Source: Neisseria elongata subsp. elongata (lineage in GTDB: Bacteria > Pseudomonadota > Gammaproteobacteria > Burkholderiales > Neisseriaceae). From it: a stretch of DNA of 64,000 nt. Both the position numbers and the translations under genes were made by a program. The stretch covers positions 1 to 64,000 of the forward strand of contig NZ_FOPS01000006.1 of NCBI RefSeq assembly GCF_900113545.1, given 5' to 3'. Of the stretch, positions 1,575-64,000 are shown piece by piece. The stretch's first letter is position 1, and the number at the start of each line of letters is the position of its first letter. A model generated the notes under the pieces. It did no database searches and was not told the origin of the DNA. It worked only from the letters and a program-made list of their open reading frames with translations.

Positions 1575-1591
1575 TATGTTCAACTGATAAA

Positions 1592-14035: not shown

Positions 14036-14069
14036 AAACAAACCCGCAATACTACTTGCGGGTTTGTTT
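14036..14069 (-). terminator. terminator of the minor-pilin operon
   Basis: Perfect 14-bp stem (arms 14036-14049 and 14056-14069) with a 6-nt loop. It lies 10 bp after the last pilin stop. Unlike most terminators in this window it contains no DUS. Confidence 0.88.
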
Positions 14070-14078
14070 TCAATACCT

Positions 14079-14558: not shown

Positions 14559-14568
14559 TACGTTTTCC

Positions 14569-16154: not shown

Positions 16155-16159
16155 AAAAT

Positions 16160-16768: not shown

Positions 16769-16769
16769 A

Positions 16770-17480
16770 TTAACATCCACCATACTCATTACATGTTGCG
16801 CCAGTTAAATCGACATCGTACTTACAAGCCGGACGGCTATCGCCATTGGCACAAAAACTAACTTGCCCTCCTGATACCAGCAAAGTTACCGCTCTACGCT
16901 CACCCGTTTCTTTATCTTTCGCCTCATTATCGGTAAAGGTAAATTTAGTAAAACCGCCAACAGGATAACCAACGCCCATATTTCCTGAACTGTCAGCAAT
17001 ATATCTTTTTATTGAGCCATCTGGAAAAAATGCCAATATTTTTGCATCCTTTTCTGCCTTTATATCTTTTCCATCAAATCCCACATTTCTAATTTGATAA
17101 CGAACTTTTATCTGATCTTTGGCTTTATTCATTACTACTGTACGTAAAGATTCATCCTTACTCCTTTCGTATTTTTGATCATACTCTGGTGAATCAGCCC
17201 ATACAGCATATCCCGAACCTGCATAAGTACTCTTACAATACTGATCCGGCTTACCATCTGTCTTAATTTGTACTGGGCACAGATAAACTGGCTTATTTAA
17301 CCTTGCTGCCTCTGCCCTAGCGAACCTGATTTGACTAGCCACTTTTTCAGCTACTGATGCAACACGCCTCTTAGCAACCCATTCTGCAAAATTTGGAATA
17401 GCAATTGCTGCCATTATGGCCATAATAGCTATTGTCACCATCAATTCAATCAGGGTAAAACCCTTTTGCCTAGATCCCAT
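16770..17480 (-). CDS. pilH: minor pilin PilH (FimT/GspH family)
   Basis: 236-residue prepilin: leader MGSRQKG, mature FTLIELMVTIAIMAIMAAIA, then the FimT signature SQIRFARAEAARLNKPVYLCP. Several cysteines are near the C-terminus. It is first gene of pilHIJKX, next to dnaB exactly as in meningococcus. The region upstream carries an unusual pair of direct repeats (17520-17565). The whole operon is AT-richer than its neighbours and free of DUS. Confidence 0.88.
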   Translation of the reverse strand: MGSRQKGFTLIELMVTIAIMAIMAAIAIPNFAEWVAKRRVASVAEKVASQIRFARAEAARLNKPVYLCPVQIKTDGKPDQYCKSTYAGSGYAVWADSPEYDQKYERSKDESLRTVVMNKAKDQIKVRYQIRNVGFDGKDIKAEKDAKILAFFPDGSIKRYIADSSGNMGVGYPVGGFTKFTFTDNEAKDKETGERRAVTLLVSGGQVSFCANGDSRPACKYDVDLTGATCNEYGGC

Positions 17481-17519
17481 AATTCATTCCCAACTTTCAA
17501 TTGTTTTCGCAGTATTTTT

Positions 17520-17565
17520 ATTCCATTATTCTAAACGATAATGGAGCTTATATTCCAGTATTCTA
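17520..17565. promoter_or_regulatory. pilH upstream direct repeats, candidate operator
   Basis: Two 14-bp copies of ATTCCANTATTCTA (17520-17533 and 17552-17565) differ at one position. They start exactly 32 bp apart, about three helical turns. Between them ATAATGG (17538-17544) pairs with CCATTAT (17523-17529) as an inverted repeat. On the minus strand each copy includes TAGAAT, which also resembles a -10 element. It could be a regulator site or a tandem promoter for the pilin operon. Confidence 0.5.
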
Positions 17566-17596
17566 GAAAATTTTAATTGATCTCTAATGGATAAAC

Positions 17597-29136: not shown

Positions 29137-31014
29137 TTAATTCTTTTTACTATACGCCCAATCTGCAGCCTCGTTCTGCCAATCCACGGTTCCTCCGCGC
29201 AACAGCGTCTGCATCATTTCCGCAGTTTCTTCATCAAGTTGCTTGGATTTTTCCATCAATGCTTCATTGGCAAACGGCGGCACTTCGGGGTCATACAGTT
29301 CCGACAAGGCAAATAAGTGATATCGGTCTCGGGCCGCGTAAAACTCACTCAAATCCTTAGCCTGCGCCAACGGTACGCCCAAACTTTCCAAAGCAATCCG
29401 TCCGCTGCGAATCGCACCGTCAAAAGTTTCCCTGACGATAAAATCCGCTCCTGCATGATGCAGGTTGTAAGCATGTTGTTGCCCATGCGCCCTGGCAATA
29501 ATGGTCAGCGTAGGATAATGCCGGCGAACGAACTTCACCACTTCTGTTGATTGGTCGTCATCTCCGATGGCAACAATCAATAATTTAGCCTTACCCAAGC
29601 CGATGGAGTTCAATAATTCCGGGCTGGTCGCATCACCGTAGTAAATTTTACAGCCATATTTGCTCAAACCTTCCACGGTTTCGGCATGAAAATCGATGAC
29701 TGTGGTATGAAAGCCGCATCCTGTCAGCATGCTGTTGATTTGCCGTCCAAATCGCCCGTGCCCCAACAAAATAATCGGATTTTCCTCATGTATTTCGTCG
29801 TGCGGACGGCTCTCGTTTTCTTTGGCTATACCGCGCGGGGCAATTACCTTATCGTACAGGATGAACAATGCCGGCGTCAGCAACATAGATAATGCGACCA
29901 CGAGGGAAATACGGTCAGCCAGTGCTTGCGGCAATACACGATTCTGCTGGGAAATAGACAGAAGCACAAAGCCAAACTCTCCAGCCTGAGCCAAACTCAA
30001 AGCAAACAATTTACCTGCTGTAGAAGGCAATCGGAACAGTTTGCCCAATATAAGCAACACGACTATCTTTACCACCATAGTGGCAACAGTTAAACCCAGA
30101 ATCAGTAAAAACTCCCTGCCTAACAAGCCGAAATTCATACCCGCACCAACCGTAATAAAAAACAAGCCAAGCAACAAGCCTTTGAACGGCTCCAAATGGC
30201 TTTCCATTTCATGTCGGTATGAGCTGTTTGCCAATGCCACACCTGCAATAAAAGCACCCAGTGCAGGAGACAAACCGATCAACGACATCAAAGTTGCAAT
30301 TCCGACCACCACAGCCAAAGTAAATAATGTAAACATTTCCCTCAGGCGGCTCTTGCTGATAAAGCGGAAAGTAATTGGAACAAGATAGCGCACACCGATG
30401 ACAATGACAGCAATTGCCGCCACGCTGACCAAAGCGATTACCCAGCCCGGCTGGTCAGCCAAAAGATTGGTTTGCACATCACTATGATCCGATTTAACGA
30501 CAGCCGTACCCAACAAGGGTAGTAACGCTAACATAGGAATAGCTGCCACATCCTGAAACAGCAATACGGCAAAACCGGCCTGTCCGCCCGGAGTCGGCAG
30601 CAAATTCTTCTCACTAAATGTCTGCAACACAATGGCCGTGGACGACAATGCCAAGATACAGCCGACGGCCACACCTGTCTGCCAAGTCTGCCCCAGCAAC
30701 ATGGCCAAGCCGGCAATGGCAGCCAAAGTCAATCCGACTTGCAACCCACCTAAACCCAATAGTTTATGCCGCAAACGCCACAGCATCTGCGGTGCCAATT
30801 CCAAACCGACCAAAAACAGCATCATTACCACGCCGAATTCCGCAACGTGCTGTATGGATTGTGCTTCTTTTCCCACCAGCCCCAATACAGGCCCGATTAA
30901 AATTCCGGCTGCCAAATAACCCAACACCGAACCCAGGCCCAATTTTTGCGAAACCAAAACGGCAGCTACGGCAAAAGCCATATAAATAAAAGTGAAAAGT
31001 AAGATTTCCGTCAT
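29137..31014 (-). CDS. Kef-type K+/H+ antiporter with TrkA-N domain
   Basis: CPA2 family cation/proton antiporter of 625 residues. There are about 12 membrane segments (residues 1-390), including the family stretches GYLAAGILIGP and FLVGLELAPQMLW. The cytoplasmic RCK/TrkA-N domain begins PIILLGHGRFGRQI (about 414-427). The architecture is that of KefB/KefC, glutathione-adduct-gated potassium efflux systems. No KefF/KefG ancillary gene is adjacent, so gating is uncertain. It is transcribed alone. Confidence 0.9.
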   Translation of the reverse strand: MTEILLFTFIYMAFAVAAVLVSQKLGLGSVLGYLAAGILIGPVLGLVGKEAQSIQHVAEFGVVMMLFLVGLELAPQMLWRLRHKLLGLGGLQVGLTLAAIAGLAMLLGQTWQTGVAVGCILALSSTAIVLQTFSEKNLLPTPGGQAGFAVLLFQDVAAIPMLALLPLLGTAVVKSDHSDVQTNLLADQPGWVIALVSVAAIAVIVIGVRYLVPITFRFISKSRLREMFTLFTLAVVVGIATLMSLIGLSPALGAFIAGVALANSSYRHEMESHLEPFKGLLLGLFFITVGAGMNFGLLGREFLLILGLTVATMVVKIVVLLILGKLFRLPSTAGKLFALSLAQAGEFGFVLLSISQQNRVLPQALADRISLVVALSMLLTPALFILYDKVIAPRGIAKENESRPHDEIHEENPIILLGHGRFGRQINSMLTGCGFHTTVIDFHAETVEGLSKYGCKIYYGDATSPELLNSIGLGKAKLLIVAIGDDDQSTEVVKFVRRHYPTLTIIARAHGQQHAYNLHHAGADFIVRETFDGAIRSGRIALESLGVPLAQAKDLSEFYAARDRYHLFALSELYDPEVPPFANEALMEKSKQLDEETAEMMQTLLRGGTVDWQNEAADWAYSKKN

Positions 31015-31163
31015 ATTTTTATTCTCGTATTTTCAATCACTTTTCAGATGGCCCCTCCTTATCAGGTAAGGCCGTCTGAAAAAACATTTCAAGCGCCACA
31101 AATAACTTGTTATTTTAACCTACTCAAGTCATAAGTAAGCATGACTTGTTTAAAATAATACGA

Positions 31164-31204
31164 AAGACCGTCTGAAAAAATTAAAGAGTTTTGCAGACGG
31201 TCTT
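31164..31204. terminator. covariant DUS-like palindrome upstream of the Kef gene
   Basis: AAGACCGTCTG (31164-31174) and CAGACGGTCTT (31194-31204). Both arms carry the same change from AGGCCG to AGACCG, so pairing is kept. It is not next to a gene end, which makes its function unclear. Confidence 0.55.
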
Positions 31205-31766
31205 AAATATAAGGAGCCCCAAATTGATTTACACAACATATTGAGAACAAAGCCACTCAGATTGCAAAAGTGTATCTTCTTTCAAATCCTTAAGAAGAAA
31301 ATTGCCATGCCACCCTTTTATCAGAGTACAGATAATCCATTCCGCTTTTACCTTTAGTTGCAGGACGCGCAATAGGAGTAAACCTTTAATCAACATTGTT
31401 TTGCATACAACAGGTAAAACAAATAGTCGGCATTGCCATGCTATTTCATGCTGTTATCCGAATAGGAAAATTCAGTAGTATACGTAGAATAATCTATGAC
31501 ATCTCACAGAAGAAATTTAACACACAGACTGTTATACAGCCAAGCCAGATGGCCGCATACAATCCACAGGAAAATTTATTAAGAGTAACAAACCAACCAA
31601 TGAATCTGTTCTTTTCATAGTAACTTAAATGGATTTTTTACATAAGGGTAATCTTAATTCAAAAGTGGGTATTCCCGGTTCATCTAGAACAAATCCTAAT
31701 TTAATATCCTCTTGTAACACTAATAGATAGCTGTACCATTTTCTACATATTAGACTAAGTTCAAAA
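31205..31766. other. AT-rich spacer without recognisable gene
   Basis: About 560 bp between the Kef antiporter and the pilQ terminator. There are two short open frames: a 55-codon minus-strand frame (31229-31396, beginning MLIKGLLLLRVLQLK) and a 74-codon plus-strand frame (31396-31620). Neither has a convincing ribosome-binding site or recognisable homology. No DUS occurs within it. It could hold decayed mobile DNA or simply spacer. Confidence 0.5.
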
Positions 31767-31803
31767 AATAGCCTAAAGCCTGTTATACAGGCTTTAGGCT
31801 ATT
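31767..31803 (-). terminator. pilMNOPQ operon terminator
   Basis: Perfect 16-bp stem (31767-31782 with 31788-31803), 5-nt loop, then T's on the minus strand. It lies 21 bp after the pilQ stop and has no DUS. Confidence 0.9.
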
Positions 31804-31823
31804 CAGAATTTATTAGTAACAGA

Positions 31824-33968
31824 TCAATATCTCAAATTGCTACCAATATTATCAACAATACGAGGAGTAATGAAAATCAAGAGTTCAGTTTTCTTATCAG
31901 ATCTAGTTTTCGACTTAAACAAGTTACCAACAACCGGAATATCGCCTAATAATGGAACTTTACTTACGCCTTCTGAGTTTTCCTCTTGATAAATACCACC
32001 CAAAATTAGCGTTCCACCATCTTCTACCATAACATTGGTATTTAAACGCTGAGTATTTATACAAGGTTCGGTAGCCCTACAATCTGAATTTACTGAATCT
32101 TTATTGATCTTAATATCCATAATTATCTGGCCATCAGGAGTGATATTAGGCGTTACAGTCATACCCAATACTGCTTTCTTAAATGACGTAGATGTAGCAC
32201 CACTTGAAGAAGCTTCTTGATATGGAACTTCGGTACCCGCTTCAATTATCGCCTCTTTGCGATCCTGCGTTAAAACACGAGGAGTTGAAACTATTTTCAA
32301 CTTATTCTGCGCCTGTTGTGCAGACAGCTCTAACCCCAGGGCACCAGAAGATAACGCATGAACCAAAGCAATACTTGACGTAGCAGCAGCTGTAGGTAAA
32401 TTCACATTAGGGTCAACAGTCCATGCTGGCAATGCTGGAATATCTTGGGATGGATTTCTACTCCAATTTGCAAGAGTTCTTTGCTTATCTACATAACTAT
32501 TACGGTTAGCACCAGCATTGGCCCAGTTACTCCCCCAACTATTTTTACCATTTGAACCTGCATATCCGAATTTAACACCCAATTGACGTGAGAAGCCGTC
32601 TTCCGCCTCCACAATTCTAGCCTCAACCATCACCTGCCGTGCGGGAACATCTAATTCTGCAATTAATTTTTCAAATTTTTGCAGTACAAAGGTATTATCA
32701 GTAATAACTAACGTATTAGTAGCTGGATCAATTAATGCACTACCTCGATTACTTAAAATCGTTCTATTGATATTATTACTAGTGTTGCTACTATTATTTT
32801 CATCAAGTTTTAGTATTTTACGAAATTCTTCTACATTTTTATATTTTAGTTGGAATGTTCTAGAATATAAAGGACCCAACTCATCAATTTCTCTCTGTTG
32901 AGTTAGAATCGCTTTATCTTTAGCCAATAACTCTTCTCTAGGCGCTACATTAATAACATTACCTGTTTTTCTCATATCTAAATTACGAGCCTGCATCACT
33001 AAATCTAGTGCCTGATCCCAAGGGACATCTTTAAGAGTCAAAGTCATTTTTCCTGTAACACTATCGCTAGCTACAATATTCATACCTGATTCTTTAGCTA
33101 GAATTTGCAACACTGTACGAACATCAACATCTTGAAAGTCTAAAGAAACTTTATTACCCTTAAATGATTTATTCTGATTAGAAGGCAAACCTGAACTCTC
33201 AACTGATGATTTCTGACTTACTTCAACAATAAATCTATCATTCGTTGTTTTAATATCATGAGTCCACGAACCTTGATTCTTAATAACTATTTGCGTATCA
33301 TTGCCAATTCTTTTTAAGACAACATTTCGCACGGGTGTACTAAAATCACTCACATCCAAATTACGCTGAGCTTGAACGGGAAGAGGATAATTTTTAAAGG
33401 TAATTATTAAACTACCATTATTATGTTTAATATCAGGTTTACCCTGATATTTTCTAGTCATAATCTCAACAATACCATTTGATCTTCCTGACTTTCTAAA
33501 ATCAACCGTAACTGCAGCAGCTTCAGAACTTGCAATTTTACTATTTACAACTTGAGCACTTGGTGTCGTATGACTCGAAGACACCGCCTCATTAATATAA
33601 ATCCAAACTTCTTTACCTTTAACCTCTGCTTTATAGTGTCCTAATCTGTTTAGACCCAACAATACACGAGCATTGTTTCCATTTTTTACTACAGCAACCT
33701 GGTTTAATAATGAATCTGAATACTCAAATGAAGATTGTGGCAATGTCACTCCAGTAGCCGGAAAATCCAAAGCAATACGAGAAGAAGGTTCATTTACCAT
33801 CGAATTTGATGGTAAAACTGTGTCTTTATCAAATTTAACTTTAACAATCTTCTGATTATTTGGCAATGTAGAAACATTAATATCAGTAATATCGCCCGCA
33901 AAGACAGCCTGCACAGCCAATGCCATTCCTAAAATTGGAAAAATTTTAACATCTACTAACTTTTTCAT
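31824..33968 (-). CDS. pilQ: type IV pilus secretin PilQ
   Basis: Outer-membrane secretin through which the pilus emerges and DNA enters, 714 residues. In order: a signal peptide (to about residue 24), two AMIN domains (VKFDKDTVLPSNSMV; VTVDFRKSGRSNGIVEIMTRK), an STN/N0 region (VSLDFQDVDVRTVLQILAKES, about 293-313), an N1 domain, and the secretin core (LSAQQAQNKLKIVSTPRVLT; VPLLGDIPVVGNLFKSK). The Lys/Gln-rich short repeats of meningococcal PilQ between the AMIN domains are missing. AAGGGG precedes ATG 33968. It is the last gene of pilMNOPQ. Confidence 0.96.
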   Translation of the reverse strand: MKKLVDVKIFPILGMALAVQAVFAGDITDINVSTLPNNQKIVKVKFDKDTVLPSNSMVNEPSSRIALDFPATGVTLPQSSFEYSDSLLNQVAVVKNGNNARVLLGLNRLGHYKAEVKGKEVWIYINEAVSSSHTTPSAQVVNSKIASSEAAAVTVDFRKSGRSNGIVEIMTRKYQGKPDIKHNNGSLIITFKNYPLPVQAQRNLDVSDFSTPVRNVVLKRIGNDTQIVIKNQGSWTHDIKTTNDRFIVEVSQKSSVESSGLPSNQNKSFKGNKVSLDFQDVDVRTVLQILAKESGMNIVASDSVTGKMTLTLKDVPWDQALDLVMQARNLDMRKTGNVINVAPREELLAKDKAILTQQREIDELGPLYSRTFQLKYKNVEEFRKILKLDENNSSNTSNNINRTILSNRGSALIDPATNTLVITDNTFVLQKFEKLIAELDVPARQVMVEARIVEAEDGFSRQLGVKFGYAGSNGKNSWGSNWANAGANRNSYVDKQRTLANWSRNPSQDIPALPAWTVDPNVNLPTAAATSSIALVHALSSGALGLELSAQQAQNKLKIVSTPRVLTQDRKEAIIEAGTEVPYQEASSSGATSTSFKKAVLGMTVTPNITPDGQIIMDIKINKDSVNSDCRATEPCINTQRLNTNVMVEDGGTLILGGIYQEENSEGVSKVPLLGDIPVVGNLFKSKTRSDKKTELLIFITPRIVDNIGSNLRY

Positions 33969-33987
33969 AATACTAACCCCTTAAATT

Positions 33988-34506
33988 CTAATTTTTAGCC
34001 TGATCCGAATCGTTTAATATTAATTCAGTTTGACGGAAAGTCCAATTACCATAAGCATCTTCAACTAATTCCGTTATATCTATTGCATCCGCCCTTATAT
34101 TTGTGATTCGCCCATAGTTTTGACCGATATAATTACCTTTCCGTACAGTATAAACATGGCCATCTACCTCAACAAAGGCTGATATTTTACCTTTTTGATT
34201 AAATGAGCCAACATATTTAATGCTGTCTAATCCAAAAGCCTCTAACACCTCTTTTGGTCTATTCAAATCTGGAGCATTAACACCATTTTGATTAGTACTC
34301 AACCTTTTACTATTAAACGCATCTAATGTTGGTTGCACAGGAGGAGTATAAGTCAACTGAGGTGCCCCTTGAGGAATATCTACAGGAGTAAACTTTCCCT
34401 CAGCCTCTTTTTTTGTTGCATTAACCCATTCGCGAAGATCACCTGGTTCCGCATCGCATGCTGTCAGTAGTAACATACTGGATAACAAACAAAGTTTTTT
34501 GACCAT
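33988..34506 (-). CDS. pilP: type IV pilus assembly lipoprotein PilP
   Basis: Inner-membrane-anchored lipoprotein of 172 residues that links the PilMNO platform to PilQ. The signal ends LLLTAC (lipobox). An unstructured region (to about 75) follows, then the beta domain (IKYVGSFNQKGKISAFVEVDGHVYTV, about 95-120, and RKGNYIGQNYGRITNI). GGGGATG precedes ATG 34506. It is 19 bp after pilO and 19 bp before pilQ. Confidence 0.95.
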   Translation of the reverse strand: MVKKLCLLSSMLLLTACDAEPGDLREWVNATKKEAEGKFTPVDIPQGAPQLTYTPPVQPTLDAFNSKRLSTNQNGVNAPDLNRPKEVLEAFGLDSIKYVGSFNQKGKISAFVEVDGHVYTVRKGNYIGQNYGRITNIRADAIDITELVEDAYGNWTFRQTELILNDSDQAKN

Positions 34507-34524
34507 TTTAACATCCCCATTATC

Positions 34525-35151
34525 TTACTGAACTGCAGAGGCAGATGCTGCCTCAAGTTGCTTGCGCTCCGCTTCTAGATCTGCAGCAGGACGAGCTTTA
34601 TATGTGTTTGCGATAGCATCTAAAGTGATTAAACCAGTTTTATCATCTTTCTTTATATTCAACTGACTCAAGGTAATTATACGGGATAACTCACCTATAT
34701 CGCGCGCAAATTTAGATACTTGGTCATATTGACCACTAATTGAAAGATTATACGGAAGGCGTTGAATTGCACCATCATTCACTGGCTCAAGTGGAGACAG
34801 TCCACTTAGTTGCAAACCATTTTTTGAAGCAGCTTGATGAAGCTCCTGAATTAAATTAGGTATTTCTTTATCTGTTGGCAGCTGTTTCAATAATTGATTA
34901 AATGAGGCTCGAAGTGCCTCTAGCTCTAATTTCAAGTTATTTAAATTAGCAGCTTGTATACTTTTTTGCCGGAACGTTTCTTTTAAGCTTATTTCTTTTT
35001 CTTTAGCAACATCTAATTCGGCTAACTGATCTTTGAAAAAGAATATATACCCCAAACCTAATATACAAATAATTAACAAACAGGCCAATCCATATTTTAA
35101 TGGATCATTTAATTCATGTAGATTCTTCAAGTCCAAATCTTTATTTGCCAT
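34525..35151 (-). CDS. pilO: type IV pilus inner-membrane protein PilO
   Basis: 208-residue bitopic membrane protein. There is a short cytoplasmic start (MANKDLDLKNLHELNDPLKY), a membrane helix (GLACLLIICILGLGYIFFF), a coiled coil (about 45-95) and a ferredoxin-like domain ending in an alanine-rich tail. It heterodimerises with PilN. ATG 35151 lies one base past the pilN stop behind a perfect GGAGGA, so the longer frame (from 35235) inside pilN is rejected. Confidence 0.95.
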   Translation of the reverse strand: MANKDLDLKNLHELNDPLKYGLACLLIICILGLGYIFFFKDQLAELDVAKEKEISLKETFRQKSIQAANLNNLKLELEALRASFNQLLKQLPTDKEIPNLIQELHQAASKNGLQLSGLSPLEPVNDGAIQRLPYNLSISGQYDQVSKFARDIGELSRIITLSQLNIKKDDKTGLITLDAIANTYKARPAADLEAERKQLEAASASAVQ

Positions 35152-35152
35152 T

Positions 35153-35818
35153 TCATCTTCCTCCATTTGATGCATTTTGTTCAGCAGGTATTGCTGCCGA
35201 TGCACTAGATGCAGATTCTGATGATGCAGAATCAATTGCTATCCCAGCTCCAGCATCAAGAATTTTATTTTGGGGGGTAATTAAATCCGATTTAATAACA
35301 AAATCCTGGCCATTATCGGTTTTTTTGATCTCCAAAAGTTCCGGTTGCTCAAACAACATTGTAGAAGGTAATGATTTCATAAACATTGCGATTCGATTAT
35401 CGCTAGAAGCTTTACCTTTTATTTCATAATTCTTTTCATTAGATGAAGATACTGAAATGAGAAAGACTCCTTCTGGTATAAGCTGATTCAATGTGTCAAT
35501 TATCTGAGCACCTTCAAAACGTTTACTTTGTAACTCTTCTACTTTCTGTTTTTTAGCTAAAAAATCTTCCTTCTCTGCTTTTAAACTAGCAATTTCTGCT
35601 ATTGCTGTATCCAATATTTTAATTTCACCTTCCAAGAAGGCATTCCTACTTTCTTGGGCAGAAATAGCTTGATTAATGCCTAGAAAAGCTACTACTGCTA
35701 GACCAATACCAATTATTCCTGAAGCAGCCATTAAAACATTAAACTTCTGCTTTTTCTTTTGATTTAACTCTTCCCTATATGGTAAAAGATTAATCTTAAT
35801 CAAATCCATCATTCTCAT
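35153..35818 (-). CDS. pilN: type IV pilus inner-membrane protein PilN
   Basis: 221 residues. The cytoplasmic peptide DLIKINLLPYREE (about 4-16) is the conserved PilM-binding motif. It is followed by a membrane helix, a coiled coil (KAEKEDFLAKKQKVEELQSK) and a periplasmic ferredoxin-like domain. The C-terminus is a low-complexity Ala/Ser stretch. Its ATG overlaps the pilM stop by four bases (ATGA), so the two are translationally coupled. Confidence 0.95.
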   Translation of the reverse strand: MRMMDLIKINLLPYREELNQKKKQKFNVLMAASGIIGIGLAVVAFLGINQAISAQESRNAFLEGEIKILDTAIAEIASLKAEKEDFLAKKQKVEELQSKRFEGAQIIDTLNQLIPEGVFLISVSSSNEKNYEIKGKASSDNRIAMFMKSLPSTMLFEQPELLEIKKTDNGQDFVIKSDLITPQNKILDAGAGIAIDSASSESASSASAAIPAEQNASNGGR

Positions 35819-36912
35819 AGCCCCCTTAAAGCTAAGCCAAATGCAACTGTCAGTCCAAATGCATCTTGATTTAATTCAGACACATCTACATGTTTACTAT
35901 ACTGCAAACAACTGATTGGATTGATGCATTCAGCAGCAGTATTTGTTTGTGAAAAAATAACTTCTGTTAGTCCAGCTTGAGTGGACGCCGCACCCGTCAA
36001 AAATATATGTTTGATATTTGAGAATTGCTCCCCAGATTGCGTCGTATAGTAAAATTGTAGAACTCTCTGAATTTCTTGAGCTATTTGAACATTAAACCTA
36101 TCAGAAATTTGAATTTGATAATCTGCAGGCCTATCCCCTCCTCTTTGCATTACCTGCGCTTGCTCTTCACTAACTTGATAAGTTCTTTGGATCAATTGAT
36201 TTAACTGCTCCCCTCCTAATGGTGATTCCTGTTTATATAGTATTTGACCATCTTGCATAACAAGGGAATACATTTCACTTTCTGAAATATTAACAACAAC
36301 AATCTTCTCTCCTTTCAACTCAGGAGATTGATCATTTAACCAATAATTAAAGGCATTCGCTTGGGCGAAAATATCAATATCTAAAAATTTTGGAGTTAAA
36401 TTAGCACTATCAAACGCTTCCAATCTAGGCTCAATATCCTCCTTTCGCGAAGCAACTAGTAAAAGCTTACTTTGAGAAAGATTACCACCATTATCTAGTA
36501 TTTGATAATCATAATTAACCTCCTCCAGCGGCACCAACTGGGCAATCTCAAATTCTGCAAAATCCTCTACATCCATCTCAGTATCTTTTGCACTATACGA
36601 AACTGTTTCAATAATTGTGAACGTTTGAGGCATTGCCACAACAATATTGCGATTATTGGTATTTAATTGGGTATATGCATGTTGCAAATATGAGACGAGT
36701 TGATCGTAATCCAGTATTCGATTCCCTTTTATGATGTTTTTAGGCAAACGAACTACCGAGTACTTTTCCAACTGAACTTGATTTAAATTACGACCAGACA
36801 GATAAACCATTTTGATGGCATTCTGAGTAACATCTATACCGACTGCGCCTCGCGCAGAAAAGCCTGACGAAGCTTTACCTTTTGTATTCTTTCCATTTTT
36901 TGTTAAACGCAT
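35815..36912 (-). CDS. pilM: type IV pilus ATP-binding protein PilM
   Basis: Actin/FtsA-like cytoplasmic protein that binds the PilN tail. About 365 residues. The actin-fold phosphate-1 region (AVGIDVTQNAIKMVYLS, about 23-39), VVVNISESEMYSLVMQDG and IFLTGAASTQAGL (adenosine region) are visible. ATG 36912 has AGGGA 9 nt upstream; an in-frame ATG at 36930 has no Shine-Dalgarno. It is first gene of pilMNOPQ, divergent from ponA. Confidence 0.94.
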   Translation of the reverse strand: MRLTKNGKNTKGKASSGFSARGAVGIDVTQNAIKMVYLSGRNLNQVQLEKYSVVRLPKNIIKGNRILDYDQLVSYLQHAYTQLNTNNRNIVVAMPQTFTIIETVSYSAKDTEMDVEDFAEFEIAQLVPLEEVNYDYQILDNGGNLSQSKLLLVASRKEDIEPRLEAFDSANLTPKFLDIDIFAQANAFNYWLNDQSPELKGEKIVVVNISESEMYSLVMQDGQILYKQESPLGGEQLNQLIQRTYQVSEEQAQVMQRGGDRPADYQIQISDRFNVQIAQEIQRVLQFYYTTQSGEQFSNIKHIFLTGAASTQAGLTEVIFSQTNTAAECINPISCLQYSKHVDVSELNQDAFGLTVAFGLALRGL

Positions 36913-36978
36913 AACTAATTTCCCTGCCATGTAATATTGGTTACAATATCGGCTTCCGTAAGCGGTTGATACGAATGT

Positions 36979-36997
36979 GCAGTAATTGATTTACTGC
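36979..36997. promoter_or_regulatory. palindrome in the ponA-pilM divergent region
   Basis: GCAGTAA-TTGAT-TTACTGC, a perfect 7-bp inverted repeat with a 5-bp centre, lies between the two divergent starts. It is the shape and size of a dimeric-regulator site. I cannot place convincing -35/-10 elements around it. Confidence 0.5.
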
Positions 36998-37061
36998 CCT
37001 GTCTAAACGTTAAAGCCATTTTACTTTATTTAATGCCTTCTTGGGTAAATATTACTTAGTC

Positions 37062-39470
37062 ATGATTAAAAAATTTCTCACCACGCTATTCGGTTTGCTT
37101 GTCGGACTGGTTCTTTTCGCTATTGGCCTATTGGCGATTGCTGTCTTGATTACCTACCCGAAATTACCTGCCTTAGATGCAGTTCAAAACTATCAACCTA
37201 AAATGCCGCTAACCATTTACTCTGCCGATGGAAAATTAATTGGCTCTTATGGTGAAGAACGGAGGGCATTTACCGAAATCAAAGAGTTTCCTCAAGTATT
37301 AAAAGATGCTGTGATTGCTGCGGAAGATAAACGCTTTTATCAGCATTGGGGAGTAGATGTATTTGGCGTAGGTCGTGCAATGGTAGGGAATCTACGCTCA
37401 GGCGGAGTTCGTTCCGGTGCCAGTACAATTACACAGCAGGTCGCCCGTAACTTTTACCTGACCAACGAACAAACTTTCACACGAAAATTTAACGAAGCTT
37501 TACTTGCTTACAAAATAGAACAATCTTTAACTAAAGATCAGATTTTAGAGCTTTATTTCAACCAAATTTATTTGGGGCAGCGTGCATATGGCTTTGCCGC
37601 CGCATCACAGGTTTATTTCAATAAACCTGTGCAAGAACTGAATTTAGCAGAAGCCTCAATGTTGGCAGGTTTACCCAAATTCCCTTCTGCTGCCAACCCA
37701 CTAGTCAACCCGAAACGGGCGAAACAACGCCAAGAGTACATACTCGATAATATGGTTGAGCTCGGTATGATTACTCCTGCCGAAAAAAATGCGGCTTTTA
37801 ATCAAGAGCTGCATTACGAACGACATGTTCAAGATATCGACCAAACTTCGTTATATGTTGCGGAAATGGCACGTCAGGAACTCTACGAGAAATATGGAGA
37901 AGATGCCTACACGCAAGGCTTTAAAGTGTATACAACGGTAGATACCGAAAGCCAACGCATTGCCACCAATGCATTACGCAAAACTTTACGCGGCTTTGAT
38001 CGGGGAAGCGCTTATCGTGGTGCTGAGGGTTATTTGGAACTAGGCAAAGACAGCGATGAAGATCTTGAAGAAATAGTCGGCAAATACCTGTCTACCATGC
38101 ATGCTGTCGATGGTCTGGAACCTGCCGTTATTATTGAAGCATCAAAAAACACCGGTATTGTCGCTCAAATCACAACAGGCGACCGCGTTCGTTTAACCCC
38201 CGCTCAAATGGGAAGTGCGCGCAATGCTATCCTCAATGCAAAACTCGAAGAAGCACAACTTCGCCCAGGTGCGGTTATCCGCCTGCAAAGAATCAAAGGC
38301 GGCGAATGGCGTATCGCCCAAGAACCTGCCTTGCAGGGCGCATTAGTTGCCTTGGATGTACGCACCGGCGCGGTAAAAGCTTTAGTTGGCGGTTATAACT
38401 TCCACAGCAAAAATTTCAACCGGGCCACCCAAGCCATGCGTCAACCGGGTTCTTCATTCAAACCGTTTGTATATTCGGCAGCACTGGCAAAAGGCATGAC
38501 AGCTGCAACTTTAATAAATGACGAACCGCTTTCCATTCCCGGAGCAGGACGAGGAGGACGGCCTTGGACACCAAAAAATTCAGACGGCCGTTATGATGGC
38601 CCGATTACACTGCGCCATGCGTTGACCAAATCCAAAAATATGGTTTCCATCCGTATCTTGATGGCCAATGGTGTGGACTATACACAGCAATATATCCAAA
38701 AATTTGGCTTCAAACCGTCCAACCATCCTGCCAACCTTTCAATGGCACTTGGGGCAGGATCAAGCACCCCTTTACAAATGGCTGAAGCCTATGCTGTGTT
38801 TGCGAACGGCGGCTACAAAGTTTCTGCGTATGTCATCGACAAAATCTATGATTCGCAAGACCGCCTCAAAGCCCAAATGCAACCGCTTGTCGCCGGGGAG
38901 AACGCACCGCAGGTTATCGACCCGCGCAATGCCTACATCATGTATAAAATCATGCAGGATGTCGTCAAATACGGTACTGCACGAGGCGCATTGTCTCTGG
39001 GCCGCTCGGACATTGCCGGCAAAACCGGCACGACCAATGACAACAAAGACGCATGGTTTGTCGGTTTCAACCCAGACATCGTAACCGCCGTCTTCATTGG
39101 CTTCGATAAACCGCGCAGTATGGGTCGTGCTGGCTATGGCGGCACCATCGCCCTGCCTGTTTGGGTGGAATATATGCGTCACGCATTGAAAGGCAAAGAA
39201 AGCAACGGTATGAAAGTACCGACAGGCTTGGTACTGCGTGGAGGAGAATATTTCTACAAAGAACGTCAAACTACTGACCCATCGATTAGAATTGACAACA
39301 CCAGCAGCCGTCCCGCCAATGAAAACACCGATACAGGTTCACCAACCCGAACCAATCAAGACAATGGCGAACAAGAGCTGAAACCCATCAACAGGGTAAC
39401 GGAAGAAACCGAAGTCAAACCAATCAACCGCAAACCCGCGGCTGATAACGATTTGAACGATTTATTCTGA
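37062..39470 (+). CDS. ponA: penicillin-binding protein 1A (bifunctional)
   Basis: Class A PBP of 802 residues that polymerises and cross-links peptidoglycan. An N-terminal membrane anchor is followed by the glycosyltransferase domain (AAEDKRFYQHWGVD with catalytic Glu; STITQQVARNFYL; KIEQSLTKDQILELYFNQIYLG) and an intermediate OB domain. The transpeptidase domain has PGSSFKPF (catalytic Ser), the SKN motif and AGKTGTTNDNKDAWFVG. The C-terminus is a polar, Asn/Thr-rich tail. ATG 37062 is preferred to the upstream in-frame start. A DUS variant sits in frame near residue 507 (NSDGR). Divergence from pilM is conserved in Neisseria. Confidence 0.97.
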   Translation: MIKKFLTTLFGLLVGLVLFAIGLLAIAVLITYPKLPALDAVQNYQPKMPLTIYSADGKLIGSYGEERRAFTEIKEFPQVLKDAVIAAEDKRFYQHWGVDVFGVGRAMVGNLRSGGVRSGASTITQQVARNFYLTNEQTFTRKFNEALLAYKIEQSLTKDQILELYFNQIYLGQRAYGFAAASQVYFNKPVQELNLAEASMLAGLPKFPSAANPLVNPKRAKQRQEYILDNMVELGMITPAEKNAAFNQELHYERHVQDIDQTSLYVAEMARQELYEKYGEDAYTQGFKVYTTVDTESQRIATNALRKTLRGFDRGSAYRGAEGYLELGKDSDEDLEEIVGKYLSTMHAVDGLEPAVIIEASKNTGIVAQITTGDRVRLTPAQMGSARNAILNAKLEEAQLRPGAVIRLQRIKGGEWRIAQEPALQGALVALDVRTGAVKALVGGYNFHSKNFNRATQAMRQPGSSFKPFVYSAALAKGMTAATLINDEPLSIPGAGRGGRPWTPKNSDGRYDGPITLRHALTKSKNMVSIRILMANGVDYTQQYIQKFGFKPSNHPANLSMALGAGSSTPLQMAEAYAVFANGGYKVSAYVIDKIYDSQDRLKAQMQPLVAGENAPQVIDPRNAYIMYKIMQDVVKYGTARGALSLGRSDIAGKTGTTNDNKDAWFVGFNPDIVTAVFIGFDKPRSMGRAGYGGTIALPVWVEYMRHALKGKESNGMKVPTGLVLRGGEYFYKERQTTDPSIRIDNTSSRPANENTDTGSPTRTNQDNGEQELKPINRVTEETEVKPINRKPAADNDLNDLF

Positions 39471-58148: not shown

Positions 58149-58160
58149 TTCAGACGACCT
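58149..58160 (-). repeat. mucDUS-dialect uptake sequence
   Basis: The minus strand reads AGGTCGTCTGAA, the mucDUS 12-mer. It stands singly in the gap between the TehA-like gene and the LysR remnant. The only other copy I saw is in the terminator at 7888-7899. Confidence 0.7.
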
Positions 58161-58208
58161 GAAGGCAAGCGGAAACAGACGATGAATGTCGCTTGAGCCT
58201 TCTTGATT

Positions 58209-58220
58209 TTCAGGTAGCCT
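58209..58220 (-). repeat. Eikenella-dialect uptake sequence (AG-eikDUS)
   Basis: An exact AGGCTACCTGAA on the minus strand. It overlaps the last codons of the LysR remnant and supplies its TGA stop. Confidence 0.8.
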
Positions 58221-58424
58221 TTTTATCATACATTTCCCGCAACACCTCCGTCAGCCAGTCGAACACCTTTAACACGCGACCCGAAGTTACTCTGCGTTGC
58301 GGGCGGTAGATGTAGAGTTGCCACGGGCGGCGCGGGACGTCGGGGAGGGGTTCTACAAGTTCGCCGTTTTGCAGGTGGATTCGGCGGCGGAGCAGAAGTG
58401 TTTTAGGGCGTTGAGTTTGTCCAT
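58210..58424 (-). pseudogene. LysR-family regulator reduced to its two ends
   Basis: From ATG 58424 the minus strand encodes MDKLNALKHFCSAAES, a typical LysR N-terminus. After a frame change at about 58378 it continues HLQNGELVEPLPDVP, RPWQLYIYRP and SGRVLKVFDWLTEVLREMY, a typical LysR C-terminus. About 230 codons between them are missing. It lies immediately downstream of the accessory operon, 23 bp from the 58447 stop. Confidence 0.82.
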
Positions 58425-58446
58425 TGCATATATAAAGATTATGCTG

Positions 58447-59832
58447 CTATGGTTTTAACAAACCAAAGTCTTTTTGTCTTATTTCATCTTCATCCCTATC
58501 AGGGAATAGGGCAGAATTTAGATAATTTTTAGCCAATCTTATAATATGATTTACTTTTTTAATATCGGTAGTCATAAACCCGATAGGCAATGTCACAGGA
58601 TAAGAAGATAGTTTTGCGTGATAACAAACTACAGCAAATTTATCTTCTAGAAATAGAATTTCAGTATTTCCATCTAAAAAACCTTCACAGAATCCGTAAA
58701 GTACTTTATCTGATATTATATCTTTAAAATGATTTAGCCATTCTTGTTTTTCATGCTGATTTCGTTCGGAAGGCAAAGGTAAGTACAGGTGAAAATCATA
58801 ACCATTTTTTTGTTTAGCTATTAGATTTTGAATTTTGTCATGAATTTTCCGTTGTTTTCCCCAGTAAATATCGCTTGGAGCCAACCAATAGAGTTTTTTA
58901 GGTGATTTTTTGTTTAAGTTATCTAAAATTTTATTGATTTGTTCGAACAAGGTTTCTTGATGATAAATTTGTCCTAAAAAATACAAGCCATTTTGTTGTT
59001 CATGCTCCTGATAAACTTTTAAAAATTCGTTAAAGTCTAATGTTCCGCCGAATAGCACTTTTAAAGTATCGTCATCACCAATTTCTTCTATACTGTTAAG
59101 CAGTTCACGCAAATTATCATGCTGACCAAATCGCTCCAGTTGTGCGGTAATGGCTTGCTGAATATTTTCTTGATGAGTAATTGTCGGTACATCATGACGT
59201 TCTTTGGCTTCGCCTGTTTCAGGCAGCAATTCAAATTGTTGCGTAAAACGGAAATAATCAGGCACGCCTTTGGGTTCAATAGCATCAATTTTATACAAAG
59301 AAATATCTTTCTCATCTAAATTGATGATGTCGTCTTCCATTAGCTGCCGAAAGCGATTTTGAAATGTTTTTCGTGCAATTTCGCTACTTTCTGATAACAC
59401 CTTCGGTTCGACGACTAACTCAACGGCTTGCTGGCGATTTTTATCACAGTCGTTTTTTTTCAGAAAATTACTATCTAATAATTCCATACGATATTCACCA
59501 CCACATTCTTTTAAAGCAGGAATATGGGGTGATTCCTGATTGTCTTGAAACAGTCTCTGCCCTTCTGTCGATAATGCAATCAAGCCGTTATCCTGCCAAA
59601 TAATCCATTTATTGCTCTCCAAATCAGCAAGGGCAACTTCGGTCTCGTGTTGGGTAAATCCGAAATATTGGGCAATTTGTGCAGGTTTGCACGGTGTTAC
59701 TTTCAAAAGTCGCAACAAATATTCGCGCACAAACGCCACGCCTTTATCGCTCATATAGGAAAACACAATATGAAAACGCGGAGCCTTAACCACAAAATCA
59801 ATTTGATTGTAAGTTATGTTTTGTTTACTCAT
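58447..59832 (-). CDS. winged-helix protein of a Mokosh type I-like system (candidate MkoB)
   Basis: 461 residues. The N-terminal winged helix (about 33-95) includes CKPAQIAQYFGFTQHETEVALADLESNKWI by position 48-77. A middle acidic region (about 100-270) has no recognised fold. The C-terminal alpha/beta domain (about 283-440) has LYFLGQIYHQETLFEQI, LYWLAPSDIYWGKQRKIHD and FAVVCYHAKLSS. The last resembles a degenerate phospholipase-D half, but HAK lacks the Asp of HxKxxxxD, so activity is unproven. Its ATG overlaps the upstream helicase stop (ATGA), so the two are co-translated. Base composition is clearly AT-richer than the neighbouring core genes. The name rests on the partner, not on this sequence. 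Confidence 0.72.
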   Translation of the reverse strand: MSKQNITYNQIDFVVKAPRFHIVFSYMSDKGVAFVREYLLRLLKVTPCKPAQIAQYFGFTQHETEVALADLESNKWIIWQDNGLIALSTEGQRLFQDNQESPHIPALKECGGEYRMELLDSNFLKKNDCDKNRQQAVELVVEPKVLSESSEIARKTFQNRFRQLMEDDIINLDEKDISLYKIDAIEPKGVPDYFRFTQQFELLPETGEAKERHDVPTITHQENIQQAITAQLERFGQHDNLRELLNSIEEIGDDDTLKVLFGGTLDFNEFLKVYQEHEQQNGLYFLGQIYHQETLFEQINKILDNLNKKSPKKLYWLAPSDIYWGKQRKIHDKIQNLIAKQKNGYDFHLYLPLPSERNQHEKQEWLNHFKDIISDKVLYGFCEGFLDGNTEILFLEDKFAVVCYHAKLSSYPVTLPIGFMTTDIKKVNHIIRLAKNYLNSALFPDRDEDEIRQKDFGLLKP

Positions 59833-62800
59833 TTTTTCGCTCCGTTTTTTAATATTTTAATTGCGTAATCTTGCGGATTATTTTGCTTTTGTATAAAACG
59901 TAAAACTTTTGCCAATGGAGTTTTGCTGTTTTTCGGCTGCTCCCAAACGGTTTTTGCGCCAACAATCACCAGTTTATCCATTGCACGAGACAAGGCTACG
60001 TTAATACGGTTTGGCAAATGTAAAAAGCCTGTGCTGTATGTTTTGTCATAGCGTGTCAGCGACAAGATAATCACGCGGTTTTCTTTACCTTGATAACTAT
60101 CTACACTATCAATTTTAACTAAGCGGTGGAAATCATCACTCCAACTGCGTTCGTTGAATTTTTTACGAATCAGTTTTTTCTGCTCGCCGTACATACAAAT
60201 CACACCAACAGCCTGTTCGTTCTTTTCCAAACATTTTTGTACAACTTCGCTGTTTATAAAGGTTTCATCATTTGCTAAATCCTGTAATAAATCAATAATG
60301 GTATCGGCTTCGGCACGGTTGGATAAACTACCATTTTTGCCTTGTTCATGATACGCATTTGGTAATAAAGTTGTATCTAACCATGTTACACAGGATTTTA
60401 TCTTTTCAGGTAGCCTGAAATAAATATTGGGCACATCATTGTCAGTTTTACCATTTTCCAAAACATTTTCATAAAAACATGCTGATACTAAACTGCCAAT
60501 CGCAGGAGCCATGCGGTATTGTGTTTTGAGTGTGGCGCAAGTTTGCTTTCCATATTCGGATAGGAAAACGCGTTCAAAATCACTGCCTAATGCTTGATCT
60601 AATTCCTCACCGCGCTTGGAAATCCCTAATCGGCGGGCAAGTGCGTTTTTATGCTCTTCTGAATACAAAGGCGGTAATTGCTTATGGTCGCCTACAAGCA
60701 AAATACGCGTACCAGACTGCATTGCAATAGCCAATTCACTGGAAATAGAACGTGCGGCCTCGTCCACAATCACCCAATCATAAAGATTATCGGCAATGCC
60801 GATATGGCGTTGTCCGATACCTACGCAAGTGCCAATCACAAGCTGACGGGAACGAGCCAAAAATTCATCATAATTGGTGCGTTCGTTAGATAGGGCTTCC
60901 AGCATATCCTGAGTTAAATCAATCAATTTACGTGCTTGGATATTTTCAATCGGCTGAATATTATGCTTGTGATCCAATTCACTGATAAATTTTGGCAGAA
61001 TTTCGTCAATTTCAAATTCACGAAGCCCCATTGCTTGAGCTTGTTCTTTAATGCTTTTTTCTAATTTTTGGTGTAAGCGTTTTTCATCTTCATCAATGTT
61101 TTCATTTTTTGATGAATTGACAATTTTTTGATAACGACGGATTTGCACGCCAATATCAAACGCTAATTCGGCACGTTTACGCAAATAGTCTTCAGGCAGC
61201 CCCATGCTGCGCCCAAGCTGGCAGATATTGCTAATCTTGTTTACATTTAACTGTGCCCGTTTTTGTCCGACTAAATTGGGTGAAAACACATCTTCCAATA
61301 TTTCGGAATCGGCAATTTCACGATTACTGAACCGTACTAGTTGCAAGTCTGTTCCCAAACGCTGACAGTGTTTACGGATACGTTCGGCAGCAGTATTGAC
61401 TGCTTCATGTGATTGGCTGACCAGTAGAATATTTCGAACCTTTTGCACATCAAATAAATAATGTACAAATGCAGCAATAAATTCTGTTTTCCCTGTTCCC
61501 GGCGGACCTTGTAATAAAGATAACGGTCCATTGGCAATCAAACGCTGAAAAGCAATACGTTGTGCTTTATTAAGGCTTACATTTTTTTCAGGCTGGTCAT
61601 AGCGTTTAAATTCTTCATCGCTGACATGAATCTCATATTTTTCAGACGGCAAGTTGCAATATTCATCAAAATAATGCACTAGATTTTTCACCGCACTTTC
61701 ACCATCTAGAATGCGTTGTAAGGCATTTTTACGGCGTGTATAAGATGCTTTATTTTGAAAGCTTTGTAAATAAACAGGCGTACCTGATTGGATGCGAACA
61801 GTATTTTTATCTTTATATTTTTTCAGATGAATTTCATTTAATGTACTTTTAACAACATCTACTGTGCCGTACACAAAGGTTTTTTCCCTATCTTCACTTT
61901 TTCCGATAGCTTCAACAATTTCATCTCGCTTAAACTGATCAATCGGATTGATTTCGCCATCATAGGGAATATAAGTTTCGCCATTTTCTGTTTTTTGCAA
62001 TGCTTCGCTGGCAGTAATAGAAGGTAAAGCTTCGGTTTCAGTATCTAAAATTGCCTGCCAAAGTTTTTGAATATTAGGACGTTGCTCGATAACTGTTTCT
62101 TCTGCAATAATATCAACAGGTTCGGCTTCAAAGTTCTCGTTATTTTCAGCTTGTTCTTTTTCAGGCTGTTTGAAAAAGTGCTCTTGGACAAATTGAATAA
62201 TAGAGTTCTTAAATTCTGTACTGCCCGCAATGAAATCATTAAGTTTATCTAAGTTGCTATAATTGCTATGTGTGATATTCAAACCGATTTGCAAACTACA
62301 TTTGCTATCATCACGATCATTTCGACTAATATGATAGCGTTCAAATGGAGATAATCCGTGTCGGAATCGTTTCTCGGAAATGGTATAAAAAGCGGTAAAT
62401 TTTCCGCCTAATCCAATAAATGTAATATCTATTTCTTCATTTGGATATTTTTGACTTTCTTTAAATTGAACAAACAATTCACCATTTTCAGGGTAAATTT
62501 CAATAGGTAAAAACGACTCACGCCCGCCTACTGTGATGTCAATCATTGGCGTAACCGGTTTGGGATTGAGAGCCTCTTTAAAACGAGCCAACGAAATAAA
62601 CGCAGTTTTGCTATCTGAATACTCTTGCTGTATCACTTCAGCAACTTCAACAAAACTTTCAGACGGCCTATTCCATTCAACGCCCAATAATTCGCACGCC
62701 ATTTTCATCACGGCAAAATTATCGCGTTGTTTCTCGGTAGGATGATCGAATTCCGGCGAATATTCAGTATTGAACTGGCTTTGCCCACTTGGCGAAAAAT

Positions 62801-64000
62801 CCAATATATCCAAAACATGCAGTTGAACAGAATCATCTTCAATCGTTACCAACACATTGTCAGGTTTCAAATCGCCATGTGTGAAACCTAGACTGTGTAA
62901 ATGTTCAATGCTTTGAATAAATTGATGGATAAGAGTCTGTTTTTGTTTATCCGATAAATCAAGTTTGCAAATATCTTGCCAAGTATGCCCGTCAATAAAA
63001 TCACTTGCTGCAAAAAGGCAGCCTGATTTTTTGGCAATACCGAATTCTCGGATTTTCGATAAATAATCAGGCGACAAATTTGCCAGTTTTGCCATATTTT
63101 CCAACCAATTCAAAACCACTCTGGCTTTTGAATTATCGGTTTGCGGGTCTGCGTTCAGCCATGCTTTAACCAACAAACCATTGGAACGGTAAACTTCTTT
63201 CTCTCTGGTGTCTACAATAAAATCATCATCTTCACGATAAGCACGGGAATGGTTGATGTCATGTGTGAATGGCTCTAATTTTGTAAAATCAAATGAAAAA
63301 TCCACCGCCTGTTCAGGTTTGGCTTGATTAAATTTATCTAAAACATCTATCGCACTTTTAAAAGGTATATCAGACAATGCCTCACGCAAAATTTCGGCAT
63401 ACCATGTGGTTTCATCTGCTAATTTATTTTTCATTTCATCAAGACTGACTTGTGAAATGCGCTTAGCCTGAATGATATGCCATGCCAAAACAGCCAAAGA
63501 ACGTACATCATATTGGTATGGCGTGAGTTTGATGCCGTCTGAAAGTGGAAAGTGAGATTTTGCTAAATCGCCGGAGACTTCCAAAATCTCACGAATGTCG
63601 CCAACAGTTTCTTCAGATGAAAAATAAGCGGTAGCAAACCCTGATAGCGTAATTTTGTCATCTGCCGAGAGCCAAATGCTGTGATTACCCAAATCGCGAT
63701 GGGCAATACCGATTTTGTGTAACTGGGCAAATTTATCCAACAATAATTGCACCAATCCCAAACGGCGTTCTGTGCTTAGATTTTCGCCATTGTATCCGCC
63801 GACAAATTGGTCAAAACGTTTTTGCTGTGGGAACAGCTCAAATAAATCAATATGTTCCGCCGTAATTTCGCCTTTTTGCGGCGTAGATTTGTAATTCAAG
63901 CAGGTGTGATACAAGTCTTTATTTTGTAATTTAATATGGTTCAATACATCGTATTCACGGCTGACTAGGCGATAACGCCCGTCAGGTGTTTGAGCTTCGG
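59829..64000 (-). CDS. pseudokinase-kinase-SF1 helicase fusion, candidate Mokosh type I MkoA (5' end outside window)
   Basis: At least 1,389 codons are visible; the frame is open to the window edge, so the start lies beyond 64000. Numbering from 63944, kinase domain 1 covers about -18 to 205. Its loop reads AHRDLGNHSIW (no Asn at the usual position) and its DFG site LSGFA, so it is probably a pseudokinase. Kinase domain 2 (about 245-455) has VKAW lysine, THGDLKPDNVLV and VLDILDF, so it is probably active. A linker domain (460-660) is followed by a UPF1/COG1112-type helicase: Walker A QGPPGTGKTEF (812-822), DEAA (1061-1064), GDHKQLPPL, TQYRMAP, DSYQGKEN and NRINVALSRA. A 200-residue helical insertion separates Walker A and B. 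The C-terminus has no nuclease. It carries several DUS dialects. Confidence 0.8.
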   Translation of the reverse strand, partial: EAQTPDGRYRLVSREYDVLNHIKLQNKDLYHTCLNYKSTPQKGEITAEHIDLFELFPQQKRFDQFVGGYNGENLSTERRLGLVQLLLDKFAQLHKIGIAHRDLGNHSIWLSADDKITLSGFATAYFSSEETVGDIREILEVSGDLAKSHFPLSDGIKLTPYQYDVRSLAVLAWHIIQAKRISQVSLDEMKNKLADETTWYAEILREALSDIPFKSAIDVLDKFNQAKPEQAVDFSFDFTKLEPFTHDINHSRAYREDDDFIVDTREKEVYRSNGLLVKAWLNADPQTDNSKARVVLNWLENMAKLANLSPDYLSKIREFGIAKKSGCLFAASDFIDGHTWQDICKLDLSDKQKQTLIHQFIQSIEHLHSLGFTHGDLKPDNVLVTIEDDSVQLHVLDILDFSPSGQSQFNTEYSPEFDHPTEKQRDNFAVMKMACELLGVEWNRPSESFVEVAEVIQQEYSDSKTAFISLARFKEALNPKPVTPMIDITVGGRESFLPIEIYPENGELFVQFKESQKYPNEEIDITFIGLGGKFTAFYTISEKRFRHGLSPFERYHISRNDRDDSKCSLQIGLNITHSNYSNLDKLNDFIAGSTEFKNSIIQFVQEHFFKQPEKEQAENNENFEAEPVDIIAEETVIEQRPNIQKLWQAILDTETEALPSITASEALQKTENGETYIPYDGEINPIDQFKRDEIVEAIGKSEDREKTFVYGTVDVVKSTLNEIHLKKYKDKNTVRIQSGTPVYLQSFQNKASYTRRKNALQRILDGESAVKNLVHYFDEYCNLPSEKYEIHVSDEEFKRYDQPEKNVSLNKAQRIAFQRLIANGPLSLLQGPPGTGKTEFIAAFVHYLFDVQKVRNILLVSQSHEAVNTAAERIRKHCQRLGTDLQLVRFSNREIADSEILEDVFSPNLVGQKRAQLNVNKISNICQLGRSMGLPEDYLRKRAELAFDIGVQIRRYQKIVNSSKNENIDEDEKRLHQKLEKSIKEQAQAMGLREFEIDEILPKFISELDHKHNIQPIENIQARKLIDLTQDMLEALSNERTNYDEFLARSRQLVIGTCVGIGQRHIGIADNLYDWVIVDEAARSISSELAIAMQSGTRILLVGDHKQLPPLYSEEHKNALARRLGISKRGEELDQALGSDFERVFLSEYGKQTCATLKTQYRMAPAIGSLVSACFYENVLENGKTDNDVPNIYFRLPEKIKSCVTWLDTTLLPNAYHEQGKNGSLSNRAEADTIIDLLQDLANDETFINSEVVQKCLEKNEQAVGVICMYGEQKKLIRKKFNERSWSDDFHRLVKIDSVDSYQGKENRVIILSLTRYDKTYSTGFLHLPNRINVALSRAMDKLVIVGAKTVWEQPKNSKTPLAKVLRFIQKQNNPQDYAIKILKNGAKK

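Follow-up and report, generated by a model that had tools for sequence, protein, structure and literature searches.

The operon and its family assignment

The window analysed here covers positions 1-64000 of a Neisseria elongata subsp. elongata contig that is 179253 bases long. It ends inside a two-gene operon that is almost certainly a complete Mokosh type I anti-phage system of the NERD-bearing lineage. In the list of open reading frames (ORFs), positions 58447-64000 hold two minus-strand genes joined by a 4-base overlap, ATGA (Table 1). On the full contig mkoA occupies C12:59829-64790, with an ATG start and a product of 1,653 amino acids (aa). We make the Mokosh type I call because the models for MkoA and MkoB span nearly all of both proteins: MkoA matches PADLOC PDLC03921 with 1,804 bits (protein 2-1645, profile 1-1598 of 1607) and MkoB matches PDLC03923 with 331 bits (3.1e-99, profile 1-451 of 454). 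A first-pass annotation, made from the letters of the window, had proposed a Mokosh type I relative with a giant protein of kinase domains plus a UPF1-like superfamily 1 (SF1) helicase, coupled through ATGA to a winged-helix partner. ORFs, Pfam and PADLOC agree on this layout, and the hidden Markov model check set beforehand was borne out, with near-full coverage of both proteins once the 5' end had been recovered.

Table 1 Features of the mkoAB locus (window coordinates unless stated otherwise)
Feature	Position	Strand	Details
mkoB	58447..59832	-	461 aa; winged helix and degenerate PLD-like C-terminal domain; ORF and PADLOC PDLC03923
mkoA, 3' part within the window	59829..64000	-	residues about 265-1653; 5' end outside, gene start at contig C12:64790
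MkoA NERD nuclease domain	contig 64347-64667, outside the window	-	residues 42-148; D72, E85, K87; Pfam NERD 8e-11
MkoA pseudokinase	63321..63959	-	residues about 278-490; HRD Asp retained
MkoA kinase with active-site residues	62556..63257	-	residues about 512-745; K542, D640, N645, D661
MkoA UPF1-like SF1 helicase	59901..61595	-	residues about 1066-1630; Pfam AAA_11/AAA_12; Nam7/UPF1 chains
MkoB winged helix	59524..59745	-	residues 30-103
MkoB C-terminal domain	58513..58986	-	residues about 283-440; PLD-like by predicted fold, no conserved HKD
LysR-type gene remnant	58205..58425	-	C-terminal fragment plus roughly the first 15 codons; also beside the operon in the relative G021
AGGTCGTCTGAA, uptake-sequence-like 12-mer	58149..58160	-	collinearity with empty-site genome G026 stops at 58160, its last base

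Mokosh was reportedly described in a 2022 paper; a Ser/Thr-kinase domain is a feature of type I MkoA, and its helicase is presumably of the COG1112 type. The available part of PMC10925250 also places MkoA among the UPF1 helicases, and a table in the accessible text of PMC10952713 lists NERD for Mokosh type I and PLD for types I and II. The family is already known, and the Neisseria operon is a real, intact and ordinary member of it: relative to NERD-lineage Mokosh I (PDLC03921 plus PDLC03923), the gene order is the same, both proteins are near full length and no anatomical difference was found. MkoB is about 28% identical to enterobacterial copies and 68-78% identical to those of Moraxella osloensis and Actinobacillus capsulatus. 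The family call is settled, and a nuclease domain lying past the window edge has been recovered.

Three other placements were rejected. The first-pass annotation had allowed for a larger, different operon beyond 64000; what follows upstream of mkoA is a hydrolase remnant, and beyond it the nearest same-strand frame, 418 bases off, is a methyltransferase. Membership of BREX or another kinase system was likewise discarded. MkoA shares with BREX type 2 PglW the order NERD, pseudokinase, kinase, but the PglW match (6.8e-32, best at MkoA 51-459) covers only 33-443 of 1403 profile positions, and NCBIfam BREX_PglW reaches 102.5 bits where the cut-off is 990; the MAD6 model also matches best at the NERD-kinase front (64-461, 1.4e-33), far under the NCBIfam cut-off. 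The available passages of PMC12839542 describe the same domain order for PglW and some DndF proteins, and give PglW winged helices and a STAND domain after the kinase rather than the UPF1 helicase of MkoA. Mokosh type II, finally, shares the UPF1-like helicase through its MkoC (1.8e-29) but consists of a single gene whose protein carries helicase and fused PLD domain (L092), whereas two genes are present here. Separately, a second UPF1-like protein of 1,197 aa is encoded elsewhere in this genome (L079, G000:C9:68179-70692); the MkoC model matches it with 244 bits over profile positions 244-948 of 1136 only.

Domains of MkoA and MkoB

Conservation was followed across 37 loci, 27 of the NERD lineage and 10 of a PLD lineage defined by PADLOC PDLC03920 (MkoA, 1112 positions) and PDLC03922 (MkoB, 610). 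The PLD-lineage set combines 2 strong matches from a search of 299 genomes with 8 of 48 plasmid records; for the NERD lineage, 10 of 146 plasmid records were taken (11 with L111), and in both cases the plasmid records were drawn from among the matches listed, with Agrobacterium omitted on purpose. Left out were L030 (late start, 1501 aa), L011 and L012 (short stretches that do not cover all of mkoA), L087 (a broken remnant) and L015-L021 (weak hits), as were the duplicates L060 (equal to L023), L090 (equal to L032) and L003-L010, L013 and L014, which are shorter versions of used loci. The 6400 bases of L023 (N. wadsworthii 9715) are identical within L060 (genome G040). An E. coli plasmid copy, L111 (NZ_CP034659.1 214742-221118), stands outside the 27 and was scanned as a 28th operon.

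Pfam hits on MkoA are NERD (42-148), a kinase (592-668) and the two halves of a UPF1-type helicase (1073-1376 and 1403-1613). NERD residues D72, E85 and K87 are present in every aligned MkoA that includes the region (26/26). The remaining locus of the 27 is L101, from an Acinetobacter soli plasmid, whose NERD has been annotated as a gene of its own (755-1132) overlapping mkoA (1120-5979), either a natural split or a frameshift. In the pseudokinase, D366 of the HRD motif is retained in 27/27, position 371, that of the Asn after it, is Ser in 24, Asn in 2 and Cys in 1, and position 383, that of the DFG Asp, is Ser in 26 and Thr in 1. The second kinase keeps K542, D640, N645 and D661 in 25-27 of 27, and six helicase motif residues are conserved throughout (27/27). 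At all catalytic columns examined in the NERD, second-kinase and helicase domains, MkoA of this genome has the consensus residue. Neither NERD nor PLD folds occur among the best 50 rows of each VIA-align list, because winged helix and kinase occupy those rows. As a side observation, the MkoA frame of Vibrio sp. CK2-1 (L030, 3490-7995) begins late, inside or after the NERD region, a possible nuclease loss or assembly fault.

In MkoB, the modelled C-terminal domain weakly resembles the PLD fold. Foldseek returned FAM83, which is a pseudo-PLD (4urj, E 1.2e-4), and H. pylori NucT (E 1.5e-4), with TM-scores (target) of 0.47-0.57 and root-mean-square deviations of 6-7; Nuc was also listed, as was TrmB, a winged-helix regulator. 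Residues E391, H405, P416 and G418 are invariant in 27/27. An HKD motif was rejected: HxKx4D occurs at residue 368 of the window MkoB alone (1/27) and was taken as chance, a bare HxK lies within the last 250 residues of 17/27, and K407 is conserved in just 8/27. No PLD or nuclease Pfam family was detected in any of the 27 NERD-lineage MkoB proteins, and a PDB sequence search with MkoB gave 0 hits.

Two Mokosh I lineages compared

The two lineages share a MkoA with pseudokinase and UPF1-like helicase followed in tandem by a winged-helix MkoB, and both parts align across them (helicases, E 2.5e-58; winged helices, E 4.9e-6). They differ in where a nuclease can be recognized. Pfam NERD was found in 26/27 MkoA of the NERD lineage versus 0/10 of the PLD lineage, and PLDc_2 in 0/27 versus 10/10 MkoB. 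All 10 PLD-lineage MkoB proteins carry PLD repeats with at least one intact HxKx4D, while their MkoA partners have no Pfam NERD and no active kinase, the kinase-like domain missing both the HRD Asp and the DFG Asp in 10/10. L111 has the same domains as the Neisseria operon (NERD, 2.7e-7; kinase present; no Pfam family in MkoB). Judged by sequence, the lineages look complementary, each as sampled having one recognizable nuclease, in MkoA as NERD or in MkoB as PLD. No statement of this alternation was found in the titles, starts of abstracts and passages that made up the literature searched, a scope outside which the original description falls; the accessible text of PMC10952713, too, is silent on whether NERD and PLD alternate.

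One tentative account, to which we give somewhat less than even weight, is that the lineages swapped effectors. An ancestral pair of pseudokinase-helicase and winged-helix-PLD proteins would have changed in both partners: MkoA gained a PglW-like NERD-kinase front, and in MkoB the PLD domain gave up its catalytic residues but survived as an inactive adaptor. If so, one sensing core drives two unrelated nucleases. The alternation itself offers a direct test of which protein bears the effector, and in that respect is of more use than the locus.

Candidate effector and mechanism

The reciprocal distribution of NERD and PLD points to the NERD domain of MkoA, rather than MkoB, as the likely effector. 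The first-pass annotation had noted a partner with no clear nuclease and suggested an effector step unlike that of known members, which is only half right. MkoB indeed has no nuclease that Pfam recognizes, but NERD lies in MkoA past the window edge and is already listed for Mokosh I in the available table of PMC10952713, so the operon does not depart from the known pattern.

The analysis shows the components directly, together with their conserved residues and the fact that they occur together; from these a mechanism can be proposed that, taken as a whole, we rate at about an even chance. The winged helix of MkoB would make the contact with nucleic acid, and the PLD-like domain would serve as a non-catalytic scaffold that helps to bring MkoA onto an intermediate of phage nucleic acid. 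MkoA would then translocate on this intermediate by its UPF1-like helicase and deliver the N-terminal NERD nuclease, which would cut. The pseudokinase-kinase pair might set the threshold, through autophosphorylation or marking of a partner.

Several points weigh against this proposal. NERD is mostly a DNA-cutting nuclease fold, which would not obviously explain the degradation of viral transcripts. Such degradation is what the available part of PMC11291487 attributes to Mokosh, and the literature searched, within the scope given above, contained no report of NERD activity in any Mokosh system and no mechanistic study of Mokosh. The 27 and 10 loci include several close relatives and are thus not independent. 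The PLD-like fold of MkoB comes from a structure model with a mean predicted local distance difference test score of 65.5 and from modest TM-scores, and no match emerged when this domain was compared by profile with the repeats in PLD-lineage MkoB (five comparisons, E 0.11-0.46; the control, in which those repeats 1 and 2 were compared with each other, gave E 8.2e-13). Finally, a hidden MkoB activity is possible given the invariant polar residues E391 and H405.

This last point leads to a reading in which MkoB itself is the effector, its PLD-like domain using E391 and H405 as an altered active site of a nuclease or other phosphoesterase. Both residues stay invariant although identity to the window MkoB drops to 18-20%, and the predicted fold is like that of the PLD nucleases NucT and Nuc. 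The missing conserved HKD and the lack of a Pfam nuclease family in all 27 speak against it, as does a fold search with FAM83, a pseudo-PLD according to the accessible text of PMC6008594, as its top match and TrmB also listed. We consider MkoB quite unlikely to be the effector.

The main rival to NERD as effector is the kinase: MkoA would phosphorylate host proteins on infection so that growth stops, leaving NERD and helicase as sensor or back-up. The near-complete retention of the four catalytic residues of the second kinase fits this, as do the resemblance of the MkoA front to the defence kinases PglW and MAD6 and the description, in the available passages of PMC12839542, of the PglW NERD as a possible back-up. 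However, the PLD lineage has a pseudokinase only, and kinase activity is therefore not general to Mokosh I; even in the NERD lineage, the HRD Asp is not retained in 2/27. We regard a kinase effector as unlikely.

Genomic setting and insertion site

The first-pass annotation was also right in placing the operon in AT-rich DNA beside a broken gene. G+C content is 0.385-0.387 across 58-64 kb versus 0.536-0.593 across 50-58 kb, and the LysR remnant lies next to mkoB. Genome G026 has no operon at this site: its collinearity with our contig breaks off at the AGGTCGTCTGAA copy in the window and restarts at position 9145 of locus L002 (contig 65144). Copies of AGGTCGTCTGAA lie at or near both cassette ends, the second end having them at L002 9076-9087 and 9153-9164. 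In the present genome this 12-mer is the rare form (147 versus 2809 of AGGCCGTCTGAA); it predominates in G026 (2833 versus 150) and G018 (2854 versus 189), a pattern that fits, without proving, uptake of the cassette from a G026/G018-like relative. Within the window, AGGCCGTCTGAA occurs 68 times and ATGCCGTCTGAA twice; we take the AGGCCGTCTGAA-rich dialect to be the commensal uptake sequence rather than the gonococcal or meningococcal one.

In the genome of a relative, G021, an AbiLi/AbiLii-like pair sits between hydrolase and LysR genes (L053, G021:C1:1290500-1299500, positions 3894-5854), with 292 bits to the AbiLi model and 91 bits to the AbiLii model (profile 21-89 of 170). The LysR gene is intact there (Pfam 2.7e-17 and 1.4e-16), and these two neighbours are the genes found as remnants around mkoAB in this genome; Neisseria may exchange defence systems at this hydrolase/LysR place. 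At a second place, G021 carries mkoAB beside the same LysR remnant (90% over 6774 columns), so the remnant seems to travel with the operon.

Remnants on either side (the LysR piece and a hydrolase piece at L002 about 8940-9085) could also mark a decaying or silent defence cluster, inactive in this genome, and in L002 8600-9220, 5' of mkoA, a simple scan gave 0 sigma-70-like promoters and 0 terminators, with shuffle means of 1.4 and 0.6. Yet both frames are full length, the catalytic columns checked keep their consensus residues, and the remnants are flanking genes outside the operon. We think decay very unlikely and retain the reading of an intact operon. Other AT-rich stretches of the window, at 14001-18000 and 30001-38000 (G+C 0.36-0.41), are possibly other acquired islands.

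Distribution and defence neighbours

The mkoA to mkoB order, with the genes directly adjoining, holds at 27/27 NERD-lineage loci compared, and the 4-base overlap at 15/27, all 6 Neisseria included. NERD-lineage MkoB was found in 6/46 Neisseria genomes, this one among them. Across the phylum 13/398 genomes were flagged, 6 of them real and 7 short weak matches (E 1.2e-8 to 6.2e-4). Plasmid records contributed 146/72556 (105 Acinetobacter, 25 Pseudomonas), phage records 3/50697, and a species collection 11 loci from 52 pattern matches; none of 16 pattern matches in viral contigs was a NERD-lineage relative. DNA close to L111 spans at least 80% of its operon in 309/5426 E. coli genomes, and among the E. 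coli records like it 329/333 are at 80-90% identity and 4 at 99% or above. The PLD-lineage MkoB model flagged 116/299 genomes, just 2 with E <1e-70; we presume that the rest are partial matches or PLD enzymes of other kinds.

In relatives, Avs1c, CBASS-type or type I restriction genes lie near mkoAB, AbiL occupies the same site in G021, and we count these defence surroundings as support for a defence mechanism.

Individual loci add further detail. In three Neisseria genomes (L057, L058 and L060; G041, G045 and G040) the operon lies inside hrpA, splitting it after 466-469 codons, and a 431-aa AAA_14/DUF4143 ATPase is encoded 33-34 bp upstream of the operon (PADLOC candidate PDC-S01, 625 bits in L060). 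In a fourth (L059, G043, 6004-7299), an ATPase of the same type (AAA_14/DUF4143) precedes mkoA by 30 bp, here at a place other than hrpA. The ATPase thus accompanies 4/6 Neisseria operons, those of this genome (G000) and G021 being the two without it, and may be a third component of the system. Among three marine gammaproteobacteria (L026, L029 and L031), mkoAB is flanked by hsdS- and hsdR-type type I restriction genes, labelled from Pfam for L026 and from likeness of ORF ends for L029 and L031. In Actinobacillus capsulatus (L022, 9515-10522), the gene after mkoB matches defence candidate PDC-S02 with 463 bits.

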